Positions 46,435-64,000 of a stretch of DNA of 64,000 bases are shown here, piece after piece. The stretch lies in the NCBI RefSeq assembly GCF_900091415.1, contig NZ_FMHU01000001.1:1550001-1614000 (forward strand), read 5' to 3'. The notes beneath the pieces were generated by a model. It searched no databases, was not told the origin of the DNA, and saw only the letters and a list, made by a program, of their open reading frames with translations. This DNA is from Micromonospora inyonensis. Lineage in GTDB: Bacteria > Actinomycetota > Actinomycetes > Mycobacteriales > Micromonosporaceae. A program made the translations under genes and the position numbers. Every line of letters starts with the position of its first letter. Positions within the stretch are counted from its first letter, which is position 1.

Positions 46435-48268
46435 CTAGGCATCCAGACCGCGCAGCACCAGTGGCAGGCGGGCCGGGCCATCGTCGACCACCCGTACCGG
46501 CACGCCCCAGTCCTGCCGGGTCAGGTGGCAGGCACCGTGCTCGTCGTCCACGTCGCAGGTGGCGGCCTGAGCGGTCACCTGGAGCACACCGGCGCTGACG
46601 GACCCGTCCACCACCAGGCGACGGGACAGTTCCGTCCCGGTGCCGGCCCCTTCCACCAGCAGCTCCGGCGGAGACGCCGAGACCACCAGCCGGGTCGACG
46701 GACCGAAGCTCTCGTCCATCTTCTGGCCGGGCGGGGGCGTGAAGATCACGTCCAGGGTGACCTCGCCGGAGCCGATCTCGGTGGGCGGACGCTCCGTCCG
46801 GTGCCGCGGGCCGTCCACCGTGCTCGCCCCGACCGCGGAGAGCGCGCCCGGCGCGAGCCGGGTCAGCCGGTGCGCGGCCGACTCGACCACCAGGACGTCA
46901 CCGTCCGGGGTCAGCACCAGGTCGCTCGGTTCGGCGAGCCCGTCGGCGACCGTCGACACCATCCTGGTCGCCGGGTCGAAGCGCCGGACGGCCCCGTTGT
47001 ACGTGTCGGCGACCAGCACCGAGCCGTCGGGCAGCGCGCACACGCCCAACGGGTGCTGGAGCAGCGCCTGCCCGGCCGGGCCGTCGACGTGCCCGAAGTC
47101 GAAGAGCCCCTGCCCGACCGCCGTGCCGAGGACGCCGTTCTCGACGTAGCGGAGGGCGCTGGTCTCGCTGTCGGCCACCCAGAGACGCCGGCCGTCGGCC
47201 GAGACGGAGAGCCCGGACGGCTGGGCCATCCACGCCTCGGCCACCGGGCCGTCCCGCAGTGCCTCGACGGTGGTCCCCGCGTACATGCCGGCGGTCCGCT
47301 TGATGGGGTCGAACCACCAGAGCTGGTGGATGCCGGCCATCGCGACCACGGTCCGGTCCTCGTACCAGGCGAGGTCCCAGGGGGAGGAGAGGTCGATCGA
47401 GCGGGCGTCGTGCGCGTGGTCGTCGACCGTGGAACGCCACTGCCGTCCGGTGCCCGCGACGGTGACCACCTCGCCGCTGTCGAGGCGTACGCCGCGCAGC
47501 AGGTGGTTGACGGTGTCCGCGACCACCAGGTCGTACCCGGCGACTTCGGCGACGTGCGCGGGCAGCAGGCAGAGGCCCTGCGGCTCGGAGAAGGTCGCGG
47601 TGCCGGCTGGGCCGTCGGCGCTGCCCCGCACGCCGGTGCCGATCCGGCGGACGACCGTCTCGCCGTCGGGGGCCAGCTCCACCAGCGAGTGCCGGGCCGA
47701 GTCCGAGACCAGCAGATTTCCGCCGTCGAGCACCACGGCCTTGCCGGGGAAGCGCAGGGTGGTCTCCGGTTCCACCGGCGGCACGTACGGCCCGTCGCCC
47801 CGATGCAGCGTCCCCTTGGCCTCGTGTACGGCGATCAGCTCGTCGATCAGCCGGGACAGCCCTTCGGCGTGGCCCTCGCCGGCCATGGTCGCGACCACGT
47901 ACCCCTCGGGGTCGACCACCGCCAGCGTCGGCCACGCCTTCGCCGCGTACTGCCGCCACATGTCCAGCTCGGGGTCGTCCAGGACGGGATGGTGCACCCC
48001 GTACCGCTCGACCGCCGCCGCCAGGGCATCCGGGTCCTTCTCGTGCTCGAACTTCGGCGAGTTGCACCCCGACGACGACCAGCACGTCGCCGTACTTCTC
48101 CTCCAGCGGACGCAGCTCGTCCAGCACGTGCAGGCAGTTGATGCAGCAGAAGGTCCAGAAATCCAACAAGACGCAGCGACCTCGGAGATCCCGCAGGGTC
48201 AGGTTCCGTCCGCCGGTGTTCAACCACTGGCGGCCCCGCAGCTCGGGGGCGCGTACGCGTGCGCTCAT
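46435..48268 (-). pseudogene. thioredoxin-like/NHL-repeat protein (NHLRC2-like), single-base frameshift near 48062
   Basis: The N-terminus begins at ATG 48268 (MSARVRAPELRG) and shows a thioredoxin-like domain with the redox motif FWTFCCINCLHVLDELRPLE. After VVVGV the frame is lost. The rest (HHPVLDDPELDMWRQYAAKA onward, about 520 residues: end of the thioredoxin domain, then six-bladed NHL propeller repeats such as FSEPQGLCLL and HPLGVCALPDGSVLVADTYN) continues in another frame. An extra T on the plus strand in GAGTTGCACC (48059-48068) explains it: removing it gives GV-HSPKFEHEKD. A natural inactivation or a sequencing error; the propeller part could still start at GTG 47997. Confidence 0.8.
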
Positions 48269-59833: not shown

Positions 59834-60397
59834 GTGGTCACCGAGGCCACCGCCCCGGCGGTGCTGGTCACCGTCCTGCTCGTCACGGTCGGCTGGCGCA
59901 GCGCCCCCACAGGGCTGGGCGGGCTGGGCTGGGGGTTGCTCGCCACCGTCTTCGCCAGCGGCATCCCGATCGCCTACATCCTCGGCGGGGTGCGCCGGGG
60001 CCGGCTGACCGACCATCACGTCAGGATCCGTGAGCAGCGCCGGATCCCGCTGCTGGTCGGGCTCGCGTCAGCGGCCGGCGGACTCGCCCTGCTCGCCGCT
60101 CTCGGTGCGCCCCGACCGGTGCTCGCCCTGGTCGCCGCCGGAGTGATCGGGCTGGTGGTGGCGTCGTCGGTGAGCCACTGGTGGAAGATGTCGATCCACT
60201 CGGCGGTGGCCGCGGGCGCGCTGGTCGTCCTGGCGTCGACCTTCGGTCCGCGGCTGCTGGTCGGCTCGCCCCTGCTCGTCCTGGTGGGCTGGTCGCGGGT
60301 GCGCCTGGGTAACCACACCGTCGGCCAGGTGGTGACCGGTGCCGGCCTCGGTGCCCTTGTCGCGGTCACCGTCTTCACGCCCCTGCACGAGCCCTGA
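59834..60397 (+). CDS. PAP2-like (phosphatidic acid phosphatase-related) membrane protein
   Basis: 187 residues from GTG 59834, six predicted helices. The sequence VSHWWKMSIHSAVAAGALVV and GWSRVRLGNHTVGQVVTGAG matches the C2/C3 region of actinobacterial PAP2-like proteins (SR-x-x-x-x-x-H-x-x-x-D-type, here SRVRLGNHTVGQVV with Gln where the Asp is usual). So the phosphatase chemistry may be altered. The true start could be a non-standard codon up to 84 bases upstream. Runs convergently toward the NUDIX regulator. Confidence 0.7.
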   Translation: MVTEATAPAVLVTVLLVTVGWRSAPTGLGGLGWGLLATVFASGIPIAYILGGVRRGRLTDHHVRIREQRRIPLLVGLASAAGGLALLAALGAPRPVLALVAAGVIGLVVASSVSHWWKMSIHSAVAAGALVVLASTFGPRLLVGSPLLVLVGWSRVRLGNHTVGQVVTGAGLGALVAVTVFTPLHEP

Positions 60398-60400
60398 TCC

Positions 60401-61093
60401 CTAGGTCCGGGCCGACGGACGGAGCATCGGCGGGTGCAACAGGGTGGCGGGACCGCGCCGGAAGAGTCGGGCCGGGCGGCCCCGCCCGCCCTCGGTGCTC
60501 CGTCCCGCCGGCTCGACGAACCCCGGGGTGCCGGTGACCTTGCGGTGGAAGTTGCGCGGGTCGAGGGCGGTGTCCCAGACCGTCTCGTAGACCGCGCGCA
60601 GCTGGGCGACGGTGAACTCGGGCGGGCAGAACGCGGTCGCCAGCGCGGTGTACTCCAGCTTGGCCCGGGCGCGTTCCAGCCCGTCGGCCAGGATCCGCCC
60701 GTGGTCGAAGGCGAGCCGTGCCCGGTCGAGCCGGTTGACCGGCACCCAGTCGGCGGCGGCCGCGTCCGACCCGGCGACCGGGGTCGGTAGGTCGGGCAGG
60801 AGGGCGAGCCAGGCCACGGTGACCACCCGGCCGCGCGGATCCCGGCTCGGCCGGCCGTACGTGCCCAGCTGCTCCAGGTGCCCGGCGGGTTGGGGTAGCC
60901 CGGTCTCCTCGGTCAGCTCGCGGACGGCCGCGTCGACCAGGTCCTCGTCGATGCCGACGAATCCGCCGGGCAGTGCCCAGCGACCCTCGTACGGTGGCAC
61001 GCCCCGCCGGACCAGCAGGACGTGCAACTCGTCGGCGCGGACGGTCAGCACCACCAGGTCGGCGGTCACCGCGAACGGCGGGTAGTCGGCCAC
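60401..61093 (-). CDS. NrtR-type NUDIX/winged-helix transcriptional regulator
   Basis: 230 residues from GTG 61093 (AAGGTGGTGA upstream). N-terminal NUDIX domain (1-140) with an intact Nudix box at about 44-66 (GGFVGIDEDLV, then AAVRELTEETGL), so hydrolase activity may be retained. The C-terminal wHTH (about 145-205) has AKLEYTALATAFCPPEFTVA, QLRAVYETVWDTALDPRNFH and RKVTGTPGFVEP, the NrtR signature. NrtR proteins sense ADP-ribose and control NAD metabolism genes. It is divergent from an SPFH-NAD kinase operon, with palindromic sites between. Confidence 0.88.
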   Translation of the reverse strand: MADYPPFAVTADLVVLTVRADELHVLLVRRGVPPYEGRWALPGGFVGIDEDLVDAAVRELTEETGLPQPAGHLEQLGTYGRPSRDPRGRVVTVAWLALLPDLPTPVAGSDAAAADWVPVNRLDRARLAFDHGRILADGLERARAKLEYTALATAFCPPEFTVAQLRAVYETVWDTALDPRNFHRKVTGTPGFVEPAGRSTEGGRGRPARLFRRGPATLLHPPMLRPSART

Positions 61094-61097
61094 GTCT

Positions 61098-61152
61098 TTA
61101 TCACCACCTTGACGATAACCTAGCAGGCGTTTTATCGTCGTGAAGACGAAAA
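61098..61152. promoter_or_regulatory. two 21-base palindromes, probable NrtR-type operators
   Basis: Site 1 (61098-61118) reads TTATCACC-ACCTT-GACGATAA; site 2 (61132-61152) reads TTATCGTC-GTGAA-GACGAAAA. Both fit TTATCGTC-N5-GACGATAA with two or one mismatches in the arms, and are spaced 34 bases apart centre to centre. They cover the space between GTG 61093 and ATG 61167, so binding would block both divergent genes. Known NrtR operators are also about 21-base palindromes. Confidence 0.6.
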
Positions 61153-61166
61153 AGGGGAGGACGATC

Positions 61167-62228
61167 ATGGCTGACGTCTCGCGGCGGCTCTTCCTGCGCC
61201 ATCTGCGCGGCACCCCGACGAGCTGGGTGCGGCACTCCACCGGCGGTCGGGTCCGTCGGGAGGGCACCGGGCTGTCCTTCTGGTACCGGCCGCTGCACGC
61301 GGTCCTCAGTGAGGTGCCGGTCGACGACCGGGAGCTGCCCCTGCTCTTCCACGCCCGTACCAGCGACTTCGCGGACGTCACCGTGCAGGCCACCGTGACC
61401 TACCGGGTGGCCGACCCGGCGCTCGCCGCGACCCGGCTGGACTTCTCGATCGACCCGCGCACCGGCGCTGCCCGGGCGCGACCGCTCGACCAGGTCGCCA
61501 CGCTCCTCGCCGAGCTGGCCCAGCAACCCGCCCTCGACCTGCTCGCCCGGGTTCCGCTGGCCGAGGCGCTCACCACCATCGCCGGAGTCCGGGAGGCGGT
61601 CTCGGCCGCCCTCGGCACCGAACCCCGACTCGCCGACATCGGGGTCGCCGTGGTCAGCGCCCGGGTGGTCGCCATCCGCCCCGAACCCGAACTGGAACGG
61701 GCACTCCAGACCCCCACCCGCGAGGCGGTGCAGGTGGACGCCGACCGGGCCACGTACGCCCGCCGGGCGCAGGCCGTCGAACAGGAGCGGTCGATCGCGG
61801 AGAACGAACTCCAGAACAAGATCGAGCTGGCCCGCCGGGAGCAGCAGCTCGTGGAGCAGCACGGAGCGAACACCCGCCGCCGCGCGGAACTGGACGCCGC
61901 CGCCGAACTCGCCGCCGCCCAGGGCAAGGCGGAACGTGAGACGGTCGCCAACGCGGCCGCCGCCGAACGCGCCCGGGTGCTCTCCGCCGCCGAGGCCGAG
62001 AAGGAGCGCACCCTCTCTGCCGCGAAGGCCGACGGGGTGCGCGTGCTCGGTCAGGCCGAGGCCGAGGCGGAGACGGCGAAGCTGGCCGCGTACGCCCAGC
62101 TCCCGGTCGAGGTGCTGCACGCCCTCGCGCTCCGTGACCTGGCCGGGCAGCTCCCGCAGATCAGCCAGCTCACCGTCACCCCGGACCTGCTCACCGACCT
62201 GCTGGCCAAGCTCGGCGGTGACCGGTGA
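61167..62228 (+). CDS. SPFH/band-7 domain protein with Ala/Glu-rich coiled coil
   Basis: 353 residues from ATG 61167 (GGGGAGGA upstream; GTG 61140 possible but lies in operator site 2). The SPFH domain (about 10-190) has LRGTPTSWVRHSTGGRVRRE, TVQATVTYRVADPALAATRL and IGVAVVSARVVAIRPEPELE. A long coiled coil rich in Ala, Glu and Arg (about 195-300) follows. No clear transmembrane helix, so it is probably a peripheral oligomeric membrane scaffold of the flotillin/stomatin type. Overlaps the NAD kinase gene by 4 bases. Confidence 0.85.
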   Translation: MADVSRRLFLRHLRGTPTSWVRHSTGGRVRREGTGLSFWYRPLHAVLSEVPVDDRELPLLFHARTSDFADVTVQATVTYRVADPALAATRLDFSIDPRTGAARARPLDQVATLLAELAQQPALDLLARVPLAEALTTIAGVREAVSAALGTEPRLADIGVAVVSARVVAIRPEPELERALQTPTREAVQVDADRATYARRAQAVEQERSIAENELQNKIELARREQQLVEQHGANTRRRAELDAAAELAAAQGKAERETVANAAAAERARVLSAAEAEKERTLSAAKADGVRVLGQAEAEAETAKLAAYAQLPVEVLHALALRDLAGQLPQISQLTVTPDLLTDLLAKLGGDR

Positions 62229-63142
62229 GCGCCACCCTCGCGCCCCGCGTCGTGGTGGTGAGCCGGCGCAGCGAGTTGGACGAGCTGCTCGCCCGGCACG
62301 GCACCCGCGCGGCGGCGGCCTGGTACCTGAAGGCCCGTGGCGGCGACCTGGCCGAGGTGGTCCACCGGCACGAACTGCTCCAGGCGGCGCTGACCACGGT
62401 CGCCGCGGCCGTCCCCGTCGACTGGCGACGCGGTACGGTCACCCGGGAGGACCTGCCCCGCTTCCTCTTCGCCCCGGAGGACGTCGTGGTCGGGGTCGGC
62501 CCGGACGGGCTGGTCGCCAACGTCGCCAAGTACCTCGACCGGCAGCCGGTGATCGGCGTCGACCCGGATCCGGGCCGCAACGCCGGAGTGCTGGTCCGCT
62601 CCACGCCCGCCGAGGTGGCCGGCCTGCTGCGGGCCGTCGCCGCCGGGCGGGCCGGCACCGAGACACGGACCATGGTGCGCGCCGTGCTCGACGACGGTCA
62701 GGAGCTGATCGGTCTCAACGAGGTTTACGTCGGGCACGTCTCCCACCAGTCCGCCCGTTACCTGCTCGCGGAGACCGCCGACGGGCGGACCCGCCGGGAG
62801 CGGCAGTCCTCCTCCGGGCTCGTGGTGGGCAGCGGCACCGGCGCGACCGGTTGGTGTGCGTCGATCGCCCGGGACCGCGCGGAGCCGCCCCGGCTGCCCG
62901 CTCCGGACGAGCCGGCGCTCTGCTGGTTCGTCCGGGAGGCATGGCCGTCCCCGGCCACCGGGGCGGGCCTCACCGCCGGACGGCTGGGCGCCGCCGGCAC
63001 CCTGGAACTGACCGCCGAGTCCGAGGGGCTGGTCGCCTTCGCCGACGGCCTGGAGGCCGACCGGCTCGCCCTCGCCTGGGGGCAGCGGATCACCCTCTCC
63101 GTCGCCCCCCGTCACCTGACACTGGTCACCGGGGCGCACTAG
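62225..63142 (+). CDS. NAD kinase-like protein
   Basis: 305 residues from GTG 62225. NAD kinase fold: VVVVSRRSELDELLARHGT-type N-terminus, the diphosphate loop DVVVGVGPDGLVANVAKYLD (92-95 GPDG in place of the common GGDG), IGVDPDPGRNAGVL, LNEVYVGHVSHQSARY and SSGLVVGSGTGATGW (in place of GSTAYS). So it is a divergent branch of ATP-NAD kinases and its phosphate donor or acceptor might differ. Co-translated with the SPFH gene and controlled by the divergent NUDIX regulator, which points to NAD(H) phosphorylation at the membrane. Confidence 0.82.
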   Translation: MSATLAPRVVVVSRRSELDELLARHGTRAAAAWYLKARGGDLAEVVHRHELLQAALTTVAAAVPVDWRRGTVTREDLPRFLFAPEDVVVGVGPDGLVANVAKYLDRQPVIGVDPDPGRNAGVLVRSTPAEVAGLLRAVAAGRAGTETRTMVRAVLDDGQELIGLNEVYVGHVSHQSARYLLAETADGRTRRERQSSSGLVVGSGTGATGWCASIARDRAEPPRLPAPDEPALCWFVREAWPSPATGAGLTAGRLGAAGTLELTAESEGLVAFADGLEADRLALAWGQRITLSVAPRHLTLVTGAH

Positions 63143-63160
63143 TGGTGGACGCCGCGCGGC

Positions 63161-64000
63161 TCAGTCGTCGGTGAGGTGGTGGCGGTTGGCCTCGATCCAG
63201 GCGTGCAGGGCCTCCGGGTCGTCCGGGTCGACGCCGTCGGCCATGAGCTGGGCCACCGCCGCCGTGGCGGGACTGCGCCGCTCGCCGGTGCTGTAGAGGC
63301 GGGCGAACTCCGGCACCATCTCCTCGATCGCGGTGTCCGTCTGGCTGGCCGCCGGTTCGGGCAGGCCACGTCGCCGGGCGGCGTACCCGGCCCAGCCGCG
63401 CAGCACCCGCGGGAGCAGGGCGGCGTCGTCCATGTCCAGTACGGCCCGCCGGTGCACCCAGTCGAGCAGGAACAGCTCGGCCACCGTCGGGCTCCACCGC
63501 AGCGGGTCGGCGTCCGGGAAGCTCGCCGCGTGGTCCAGGAGCAGGCTCAGGCAGAAGTGCAGGGACGCCAGCTCCGGACCGTCCATGGCGTCCAGTTCGA
63601 ACCGGGCGGCCTCCGGCGAGGCGAGGAACTGGCGTACCAGCTCGGTGCGCTCCGCCGGGGTGAGCGGCTCCGGGTCGACCGGGGCCCGGACGGGGCGGGG
63701 CAGCAGGGCCAGCCGGGCCCCGGCGATCGTCCGGTCGGTGGCGAGCGACCCCTCGCCGGGCAGGTCGCCGAGGTCGTCGGTGATCGCCAGGTGGCGGGAC
63801 ACCTCGCTGTGCAGCCGGGCCGGGTCCTCCGTCCGGAACCAGGTCAGCTCGTCGGTGGCGCACATCTGCCGGACCTGTTCCAGGATCCGTTCGGCCGGTC
63901 CGCCGACGAAGATGTCCTTGGTGATGCCGATGTTGTGGTCGACCAGGGCGACCATGGCGTGCTCCGGTCCGCCGGCCGCCTCGTCGTACGCGAAGGTGGC
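63161..64000 (-). CDS. hypothetical protein, 5' end outside window
   Basis: The frame is open to the window edge (64000). The visible 279 residues begin ATFAYDEAAGGPEHAMVALV and contain DHNIGITKDIFVGGPAERIL, LASLHFCLSLLLDHAASFPD and ELFLLDWVHRRAVLDMDDAA; the end is acidic-helical (LMADGVDPDDPEALHAWIEA). It looks like a soluble, mostly helical protein. An internal ATG at 63955 could be a start but the conserved-looking sequence continues before it. No family recognised. Confidence 0.65.
   Translation of the reverse strand, partial: ATFAYDEAAGGPEHAMVALVDHNIGITKDIFVGGPAERILEQVRQMCATDELTWFRTEDPARLHSEVSRHLAITDDLGDLPGEGSLATDRTIAGARLALLPRPVRAPVDPEPLTPAERTELVRQFLASPEAARFELDAMDGPELASLHFCLSLLLDHAASFPDADPLRWSPTVAELFLLDWVHRRAVLDMDDAALLPRVLRGWAGYAARRRGLPEPAASQTDTAIEEMVPEFARLYSTGERRSPATAAVAQLMADGVDPDDPEALHAWIEANRHHLTDD

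Follow-up and report, generated by a model that had tools for sequence, protein, structure and literature searches.

Why an NrtR-type repressor should face an operon that pairs an SPFH (Band 7) protein with a relative of the nicotinamide adenine dinucleotide (NAD) kinases is the question raised by three genes at the right end of the window, the whole 64,000-nt stretch of Micromonospora inyonensis DNA that was analysed (contig NZ_FMHU01000001.1, positions 1,550,001 to 1,614,000). As shown in Table 1, the repressor gene is divergent from the SPFH-kinase operon. The three genes form a genuine module of wide distribution, for which the searches made found no earlier description; its regulation is well supported by sequence patterns kept across loci, and its biochemical role is read from what is known of the protein families. 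The initial annotation of this DNA had described a Nudix regulator facing an SPFH gene and a divergent NAD kinase gene joined by a 4-base overlap, and both the arrangement and the overlap, GTGA, were recovered.

That the genes belong together is evident from their distribution. Relatives of the kinase were collected with one genome per species, which gave 416 matches, and the best 80 were retained; an SPFH gene lies upstream of the kinase gene in 79 of 79 testable loci, the copy containing a run of N in L063, being split between frames in L038 and clipped by the contig start in L042, while in the one other retrieved locus, L036, the contig begins 46 bases before the kinase. A divergent repressor is present in 71 of the 80 loci, seven being without one and two having no upstream DNA. 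The loci include ones from Micromonospora, Plantactinospora, Actinoplanes, Catellatospora, Dactylosporangium and Glycomyces, and further from Kribbella, Lentzea, Umezawaea, Antrihabitans, Nocardioides and one metagenome-assembled genome of the Acidimicrobiales. In the sample of 101 genomes of the family (cut-offs: kinase E <= 1e-100, SPFH E <= 1e-40, repressor E <= 1e-87), the kinase was found in 45 (50 at E <= 1e-3, the extra five being weak matches) and the SPFH gene in 46, which include all 45 kinase genomes (Fisher 4e-28); in G002, the sole genome with SPFH and no kinase, the SPFH gene lies at a contig edge. The trio also occurs beyond Actinomycetota; a grouping confined to this strain, which by the initial annotation would have refuted its proposal, is not what was observed. 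A close copy of the repressor stands beside the SPFH gene in 31 of the 45 kinase genomes (adjacency taken from coordinates) and elsewhere in the genome in four; the repressor is frequent, not obligatory. The kinase is rarer in the phylum sample than in the family (13 of 396 genomes at E <= 1e-10) and, among the six genomes listed for the genus to which the window belongs, is present in two. The protein distances of the three genes agree, with Mantel values of 0.94–0.96 for 65 loci and 0.86–0.90 for the 59 actinobacterial ones, and this agreement, having no housekeeping control, shows common inheritance only weakly.

The intergenic region between the divergent genes shows how the operon may be controlled. 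The operator consensus, TTATCGTC-N5-GACGATAA, is a 21-bp palindrome that is present twice, 34 bp apart, and the two copies together occupy exactly the span 61098–61152 for which a shared promoter had been proposed. The sigma-70-like site TTGACG-18-TATCGT is the sole promoter-like match in 60350–63250, shuffled sequences giving a mean of 0.0. At no more than two mismatches, the 6.9-Mb genome holds only these two operator sites and the reversed control pattern gives 0; no larger regulon of these operators was found in the window genome at this threshold. Upstream DNA is available for 78 loci; both operators score at least 12/16 in 74 of them and stand exactly 34 bp apart in 68 of the 74. TTGAC[AGT]-N15-19-TATCGT occurs in 73 of the 74 two-operator loci, with an 18-base spacer in 68. 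The TT of TTGACG lies outside the palindrome and is invariant in operator 1 (74/74), while the equivalent place in operator 2 has it in only 6/74, which is exactly the pattern that a −35 box predicts. A chance origin of the palindromes is excluded because they are conserved across loci and have only two sites genome-wide, and a repressor that would cover both promoter elements accounts best for the fixed geometry.

The spread beyond Actinomycetota was sampled through plasmid records only, of which 57 were matched with the window kinase as query and 69 with a Cupriavidus kinase. The divergent trio was found in records from Rhizobium (L114, L119), Methylomonas (L113), Providencia (L116) and Moraxella (L117), and also from Cupriavidus (L111, an unannotated record whose open reading frames were called here); in a plasmid of Treponema saccharophilum the SPFH-kinase pair has a Nudix gene about 4 kb off, and in Roseomonas the pair was found and no Nudix gene. 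The SPFH-kinase pair is thus present in Actinomycetota, Pseudomonadota and Spirochaetota, partly on plasmids. In public annotation the kinase goes under the names 'sugar kinase', 'hypothetical protein' and 'ATP-NAD kinase PpnK-type protein'. The operator geometry was looked for in the non-actinobacterial loci against dinucleotide-matched random sequences (300 each, eight loci, five gap lengths, values uncorrected for multiple tests). For 8-N5-8, the value was about 0.007 in Moraxella, 0.010 in the window itself and 0.003 in Treponema, where one of the two sites lies 100 bases upstream and looks like an unrelated hairpin, N3 giving 0.017 there; it was 0.10–0.34 in the two Rhizobium records, Methylomonas, Providencia and Roseomonas. 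Low values were also obtained for Cupriavidus at each gap from N3 to N6 and for Rhizobium at N3 (0.010, 0.030). The geometry outside Actinomycetota is therefore suggestive only. In the Treponema record (L112: 2–829, 4806–6912), a promoter-like site TTGACA-N17-TAATAT was seen by eye at the SPFH-kinase pair, with a palindrome AAAGTAGT-N5-ACTACTTT immediately downstream. On several plasmids (records H71–H80 among them) either the complete kinase gene or a piece of its 3' end occurs, and in L117:5926-8787 and L118:5926-8787 tetR(H)-tet(H) lies directly behind the kinase, as if the tet(H) segment came from a module-bearing chromosome. A phage origin is unsupported, as the kinase has no match among 50,697 phage records or in viral contigs.

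The repressor consists of a Nudix domain (PF00293, 1.1e-21) and an NrtR winged helix (PF21906, 1.3e-13), both above the curated cut-offs, and its PDB matches, to Nudix regulators such as 3gz5 and AraR 5bs6, span the protein; against the NrtR equivalog model it reaches 134.4 bits with a cut-off of 400, which places it in the NrtR family and not in that equivalog. Its Nudix box, GGFVGIDEDLVDAAVRELTEETGL, is complete, so that both features named in the initial annotation, the intact box and the winged helix, are borne out. A full Nudix box was found in 65 of the 72 repressors tested and in 65 of the 66 actinobacterial ones; the misses are the actinobacterial L050, which deviates at one residue, and all six proteobacterial copies of the set, two of them from Rhizobium, in which REUXEE is changed to RKLKDK, RKLKEK or RVLKEK. 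The Nudix protein of Treponema, outside the 72-sequence set, looks complete in this box. Because the box is complete in one group and altered in the other, the actinobacterial repressor may hydrolyse its own ligand, whereas the proteobacterial one probably only binds it.

The kinase is divergent at the sequence level. It has no match to the Pfam NAD kinase family PF01513, and of five relatives three have none and two fall below the cut-off (0.012, 0.018); with the NCBIfam NAD kinase models there are weak matches below cut-off, the best at 5.4e-7 (29 bits, cut-off 316). In the PDB, human NADK2 was matched at 8.2e-7 by the window kinase and at 8.4e-14 by a 74-sequence profile; it ranks first for both, and likewise for individual kinases of Moraxella, Rhizobium and Treponema. 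The predicted structure (predicted local distance difference test score, pLDDT, 93.2; predicted template modelling score, pTM, 0.89) has human NADK2 (7r4l) as its best Foldseek match, with an E value of 6.2e-18, followed by bacterial NAD kinases. All NAD kinases are reported to bear GGDG, NE/D and region II, the Asp of GGDG serving to activate the 2'-hydroxyl (PMC8553519). Among the 82 sequences compared, the loop Asp of G-x-D-G, Asp94 in the window kinase when counted from its start codon, is kept in 82/82; the Asn of NE/D is likewise kept in 82/82, followed by E in 75/75 actinobacterial and D in 7/7 other sequences; in region II (TAY) Trp replaces Tyr in 82/82 and Thr is kept in 81/82, NADK2 having KAW here. 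Judged by these residues, the protein is NADK2-like, with the predicted catalytic residues in place, and is not a canonical NAD kinase. The earlier assignment as an NAD kinase thus stands in part: the NADK2-like sequence and fold and the catalytic Asp speak for it, and the altered GGDG and the missed PF01513 against it. In addition, the genome has four other PF01513 matches, and the two that were inspected (L001, L002) are canonical, with GGDGT and STAY.

The SPFH protein matches Band_7 at 5.3e-15. The monomer model (pLDDT 82.2, pTM 0.47) shows domain strands to about residue 172, one 137-residue helix (174–310) and a short helical tail, a fold that matches HflK/C, flotillin, stomatin, erlin, prohibitin and the major vault protein; the best PDB profile match, HflK, is weak (3.9e-4). 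Among 86 proteins of this family, the median hydropathy maximum is 1.17, and 3/86 reach at least 1.6, with stretches that start from residues 147–149, inside the SPFH domain. Cages are established for HflK/C and flotillin (PMC11260169).

Taken together, these features suggest a unit that responds to NAD turnover, in which a scaffolded NAD(H) kinase would be derepressed by adenosine diphosphate ribose (ADP-ribose); as a whole this mechanism is given a little better than an even chance. The repressor would bind both palindromes and block RNA polymerase at the operon promoter and at its own, and repression through these operators is highly probable. ADP-ribose released by NAD cleavage would fill the Nudix domain so that the DNA is let go, as in M. 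smegmatis NrtR; by this analogy ADP-ribose is a fairly likely effector, rated slightly lower than at first because the release of M. smegmatis NrtR from DNA was seen at 50 mM ADP-ribose (PMC6800001). Where its Nudix box is complete, the repressor may in addition break down the signal, which would reset the switch. The derepressed operon would yield, in coupled translation, an SPFH protein able to form a ring or cage, on which the NADK2-like kinase would dock and phosphorylate NAD or NADH to NADP(H); NADP(H) would thus be supplied locally or in protected form alongside the canonical NAD kinases. A complex of the two proteins is likely; action on NAD(H) is somewhat more probable than not; and for a membrane location the chances are evenly balanced. 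A more daring version, in which a flotillin- or vault-like NADP(H) cage, possibly anchorless, carries the NADK2 counterpart and is switched by ADP-ribose via the two-operator repressor, is speculative and on the whole improbable.

In that version the module would be portable, being found in three phyla and partly on plasmids, and would protect or redirect the NAD pool during NAD destruction. The module would tie NAD breakdown to NADP(H) supply via a dedicated switch, and with it a simple relative of mitochondrial NADK2 would be at hand in bacteria. The SPFH protein is constantly paired with a relative of cofactor kinases, in most loci under a sensor of the NrtR type, which provides one testable client and one testable signal, and the clear operator and the small size make each step testable in ordinary bacteria.

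Each part resembles a known system and departs from it. Like the NrtR regulons (M. smegmatis nrtR-nadABC), the module has a Nudix and winged-helix repressor that adjoins its target operon, with a palindrome between them; unlike in M. smegmatis, the target is an SPFH-kinase operon and not NAD synthesis, and the operators are two 8-N5-8 palindromes on the −35 and −10 elements with another half-site, while the M. smegmatis palindrome is 8-N7-8 (PMC6800001). The Nudix box, complete in nearly all the actinobacterial repressors, is less conserved in MsNrtR, for which PMC6800001 gives no detectable hydrolase activity. The kinase shares with human NADK2 (C5orf33) the NE...GTG..W region, and the Moraxella kinase also a VREP/IREP stretch; it differs in G[P/Q]DGL against GGDGT, in its length of about 300 aa against PDB chains of 391 and 398 aa, and in being bacterial and SPFH-paired. 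Similarly, the SPFH protein has the SPFH domain and the long helix after it in common with SPFH cages (HflK/C-FtsH, flotillin, QmcA-YbbJ, prohibitin, stomatin and the major vault protein), from which it differs in its partner, a cofactor-kinase relative, in the lack of a detected transmembrane helix and in weak sequence similarity, the comparison here being made with a monomer model. The repressor type and the probable ADP-ribose signal are also those of the Nudix-HTH-regulated anti-viral ADP-ribosylation systems of PMC9503650, whose main text makes no mention of SPFH, Band-7, flotillin, NAD kinase or NADK. Among 5.39 million open full texts, no paper was found that brings SPFH together with NAD kinase or NADK, an earlier mention elsewhere being possible; NrtR and a flotillin-like protein appear separately in a C. 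glutamicum table (PMC2807442). The system had been presented as one not known to be described, and the literature agrees as far as it is openly searchable.

Several observations weigh against the proposed NAD-turnover unit. The GGDG loop is altered to GQDG(LV) in 66/82 and GPDG(LV) in 16/82 sequences, the other three letters being invariant, and the predicted kinase activity is therefore not assured; the NADK2 fold match is moderate (query template modelling score 0.68, root-mean-square deviation 6.5, 18% identity); and since the genome has canonical NAD kinases, the cell does not lack a source of NADP as such. A Kyte-Doolittle scan, which would not reveal attachment by surface loops or lipid, detected no transmembrane helix in the window SPFH protein, the 19-residue maximum being 1.27. 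As to regulation, L049, L069 and L027 have no operators and L019 has nothing above 11/16, while L026 has sites of 13 and 11 and L098 and L105 only the second site; the SPFH-kinase pair therefore also exists without this switch. Ten of the 45 kinase genomes have no close repressor copy at the cut-off, and seven genomes, G002 excluded, have a close repressor and no kinase, so that the regulator belongs to most loci and not to all. Related palindromes near second NrtR copies of other genomes score 12–14/16 on the module consensus, and the retention of the best 80 matches biases the set toward close relatives.

Four other explanations were weighed. It is rather doubtful that the kinase-like protein makes no NADP and instead phosphorylates ADP-ribose or another NAD breakdown product, or acts as an inactive NAD(H)-binding subunit that gates SPFH assembly. 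The loop, changed in every sequence, the Pfam cut-off, missed by the window protein and its five relatives, and the canonical NAD kinases already in the genome all agree with such a role, and an ADP-ribosyl substrate would match what the repressor probably senses; however, the catalytic Asp, N-E/N-D and G-x-x-W are kept, much as in active human NADK2, and the invariance of the catalytic residues speaks against a dead enzyme. Also unlikely is a general oxidative- or respiratory-stress unit, with an SPFH protein that would order the membrane close to NADH dehydrogenases and a kinase that would convert NADH to NADPH at that site. It would fit the report that bacterial HflK-HflC supports aerobic respiration (PMC12005517) and the preliminary NAD(H) kinase activity of C5orf33, that is, human NADK2 (PMC8553519), but the hydropathy scan found no membrane anchor in the SPFH protein and no respiratory-chain gene was recognised by eye among the 14 most shared neighbour clusters.

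Distinctly unlikely, too, is an anti-phage or anti-NADase unit, in which NAD cleavage yields the ADP-ribose that induces the pair, and the pool is sheltered as NADP or in the SPFH cage. It draws on the patchy presence in the genus and the phylum sample, the plasmid copies, the probable ADP-ribose sensor and the occurrence of Nudix-HTH repressors on predicted anti-viral ADP-ribosylation operons (PMC9503650); against this, PADLOC gives no match for the SPFH protein or the kinase and only a weak one for the repressor (PDC-S07, 1.3e-4), no defence gene was recognised by eye in the same 14 clusters, and the kinase is absent from the phage records. Finally, that the genes are chance neighbours with no shared function has nothing in its favour except that each superfamily is common; a chance adjacency is contradicted by co-occurrence, by the fixed order and geometry and by operator conservation, and was rejected as having practically no probability. 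The preferred reading remains the ADP-ribose-switched, scaffolded NAD(H) kinase.

The gene boundaries of the trio are given in Table 1. The repressor probably starts at GTG 61093, which is preferred because the open frame further upstream (to 61393) would traverse the operators. The SPFH gene, previously set to begin at GTG 61140, probably starts at ATG 61167, because GGGGAGG precedes the latter and GTG 61140 falls within operator 2; the trio itself was called as before. The SPFH family alignment begins at MADV, which agrees with 61167, although the script favoured starts near that of the window and the agreement is not independent. The same 4-base overlap of kinase and SPFH genes occurs in 51 of 79 loci, with the starts chosen in this analysis, and suggests translational coupling of the two genes via GTGA.

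Table 1. Coordinates of the genes and control elements of the module (positions in the window)
Feature	Position	Strand	Remarks
NrtR-type repressor gene	61093-60401	-	230 aa; N-terminal Nudix sensor, C-terminal NrtR winged helix
Operator 1, TTATCACCACCTTGACGATAA	61098-61118		14/16 palindrome positions; right half includes -35 hexamer TTGACG
Predicted sigma-70-like promoter of SPFH-kinase operon, TTGACG-18-TATCGT	61109-61138	+	pattern scan
Operator 2, TTATCGTCGTGAAGACGAAAA	61132-61152		15/16 positions; left half includes -10
Putative ribosome-binding site of SPFH gene, GGGGAGG	61154-61160	+	read directly
SPFH / Band 7 gene	61167-62228	+	353 aa
GTGA overlap, SPFH stop/kinase start	62225-62228	+	read in sequence
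NADK2-like kinase gene	62225-63142	+	305 aa; G-P-D-G-L loop, NE motif, SSSG...GTGATGW region

Copies of the repressor away from the operon show how the operators are shared out. In four genomes, the repressor lies far from the operon (81–84% identical), and the double operator is kept at both promoters; in seven genomes of family f4 (Streptomyces-like, as inferred), the best repressor is 69–71% identical and has one 14/16 site, the operon having two sites. The second NrtR copies of five f4 genomes and one more (L138–L141, L144, L145) have the related palindromes mentioned above, for instance TTATAGTC-N5-GACTATAA; those of L138–L141 differ from the module operator by about one base per half-site and form a natural pair for specificity studies. 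In G313, the genome of SPFH-kinase locus L019, the sole repressor relative (L137) is 47% identical and carries no site. The window genome has a second NrtR-type repressor (L143, G000:C1:1659522-1660214), 63% identical and about 48 kb from the module, with no site of at least 12/16 of the module's operator nearby; the same holds for L133–L136, which at 64–66% identity are the sole copies in four genomes of the genus that lack the module.

No wider conserved locus emerged, since none of the 14 most shared neighbour clusters has a fixed place across groups; the two most widely shared neighbours, ABC ATPase-like and SDR enzyme-like by eye, stand at scattered positions. Within groups, some neighbours are stable: in Catellatospora the kinase is followed by a gene that looks TetR-like by eye, and a further case is the gene at 63161–63955 (−) in Micromonospora. 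The latter is convergent with the module, has no Pfam family above the cut-off and is probably longer, being clipped by the window end; it is kept near the module in Micromonospora loci, and a 38–39% identical relative occurs in two Virgisporangium loci. Elsewhere in the window, 46435–47997 (−) encodes an NHL-repeat protein (PF01436, 6.5e-25).

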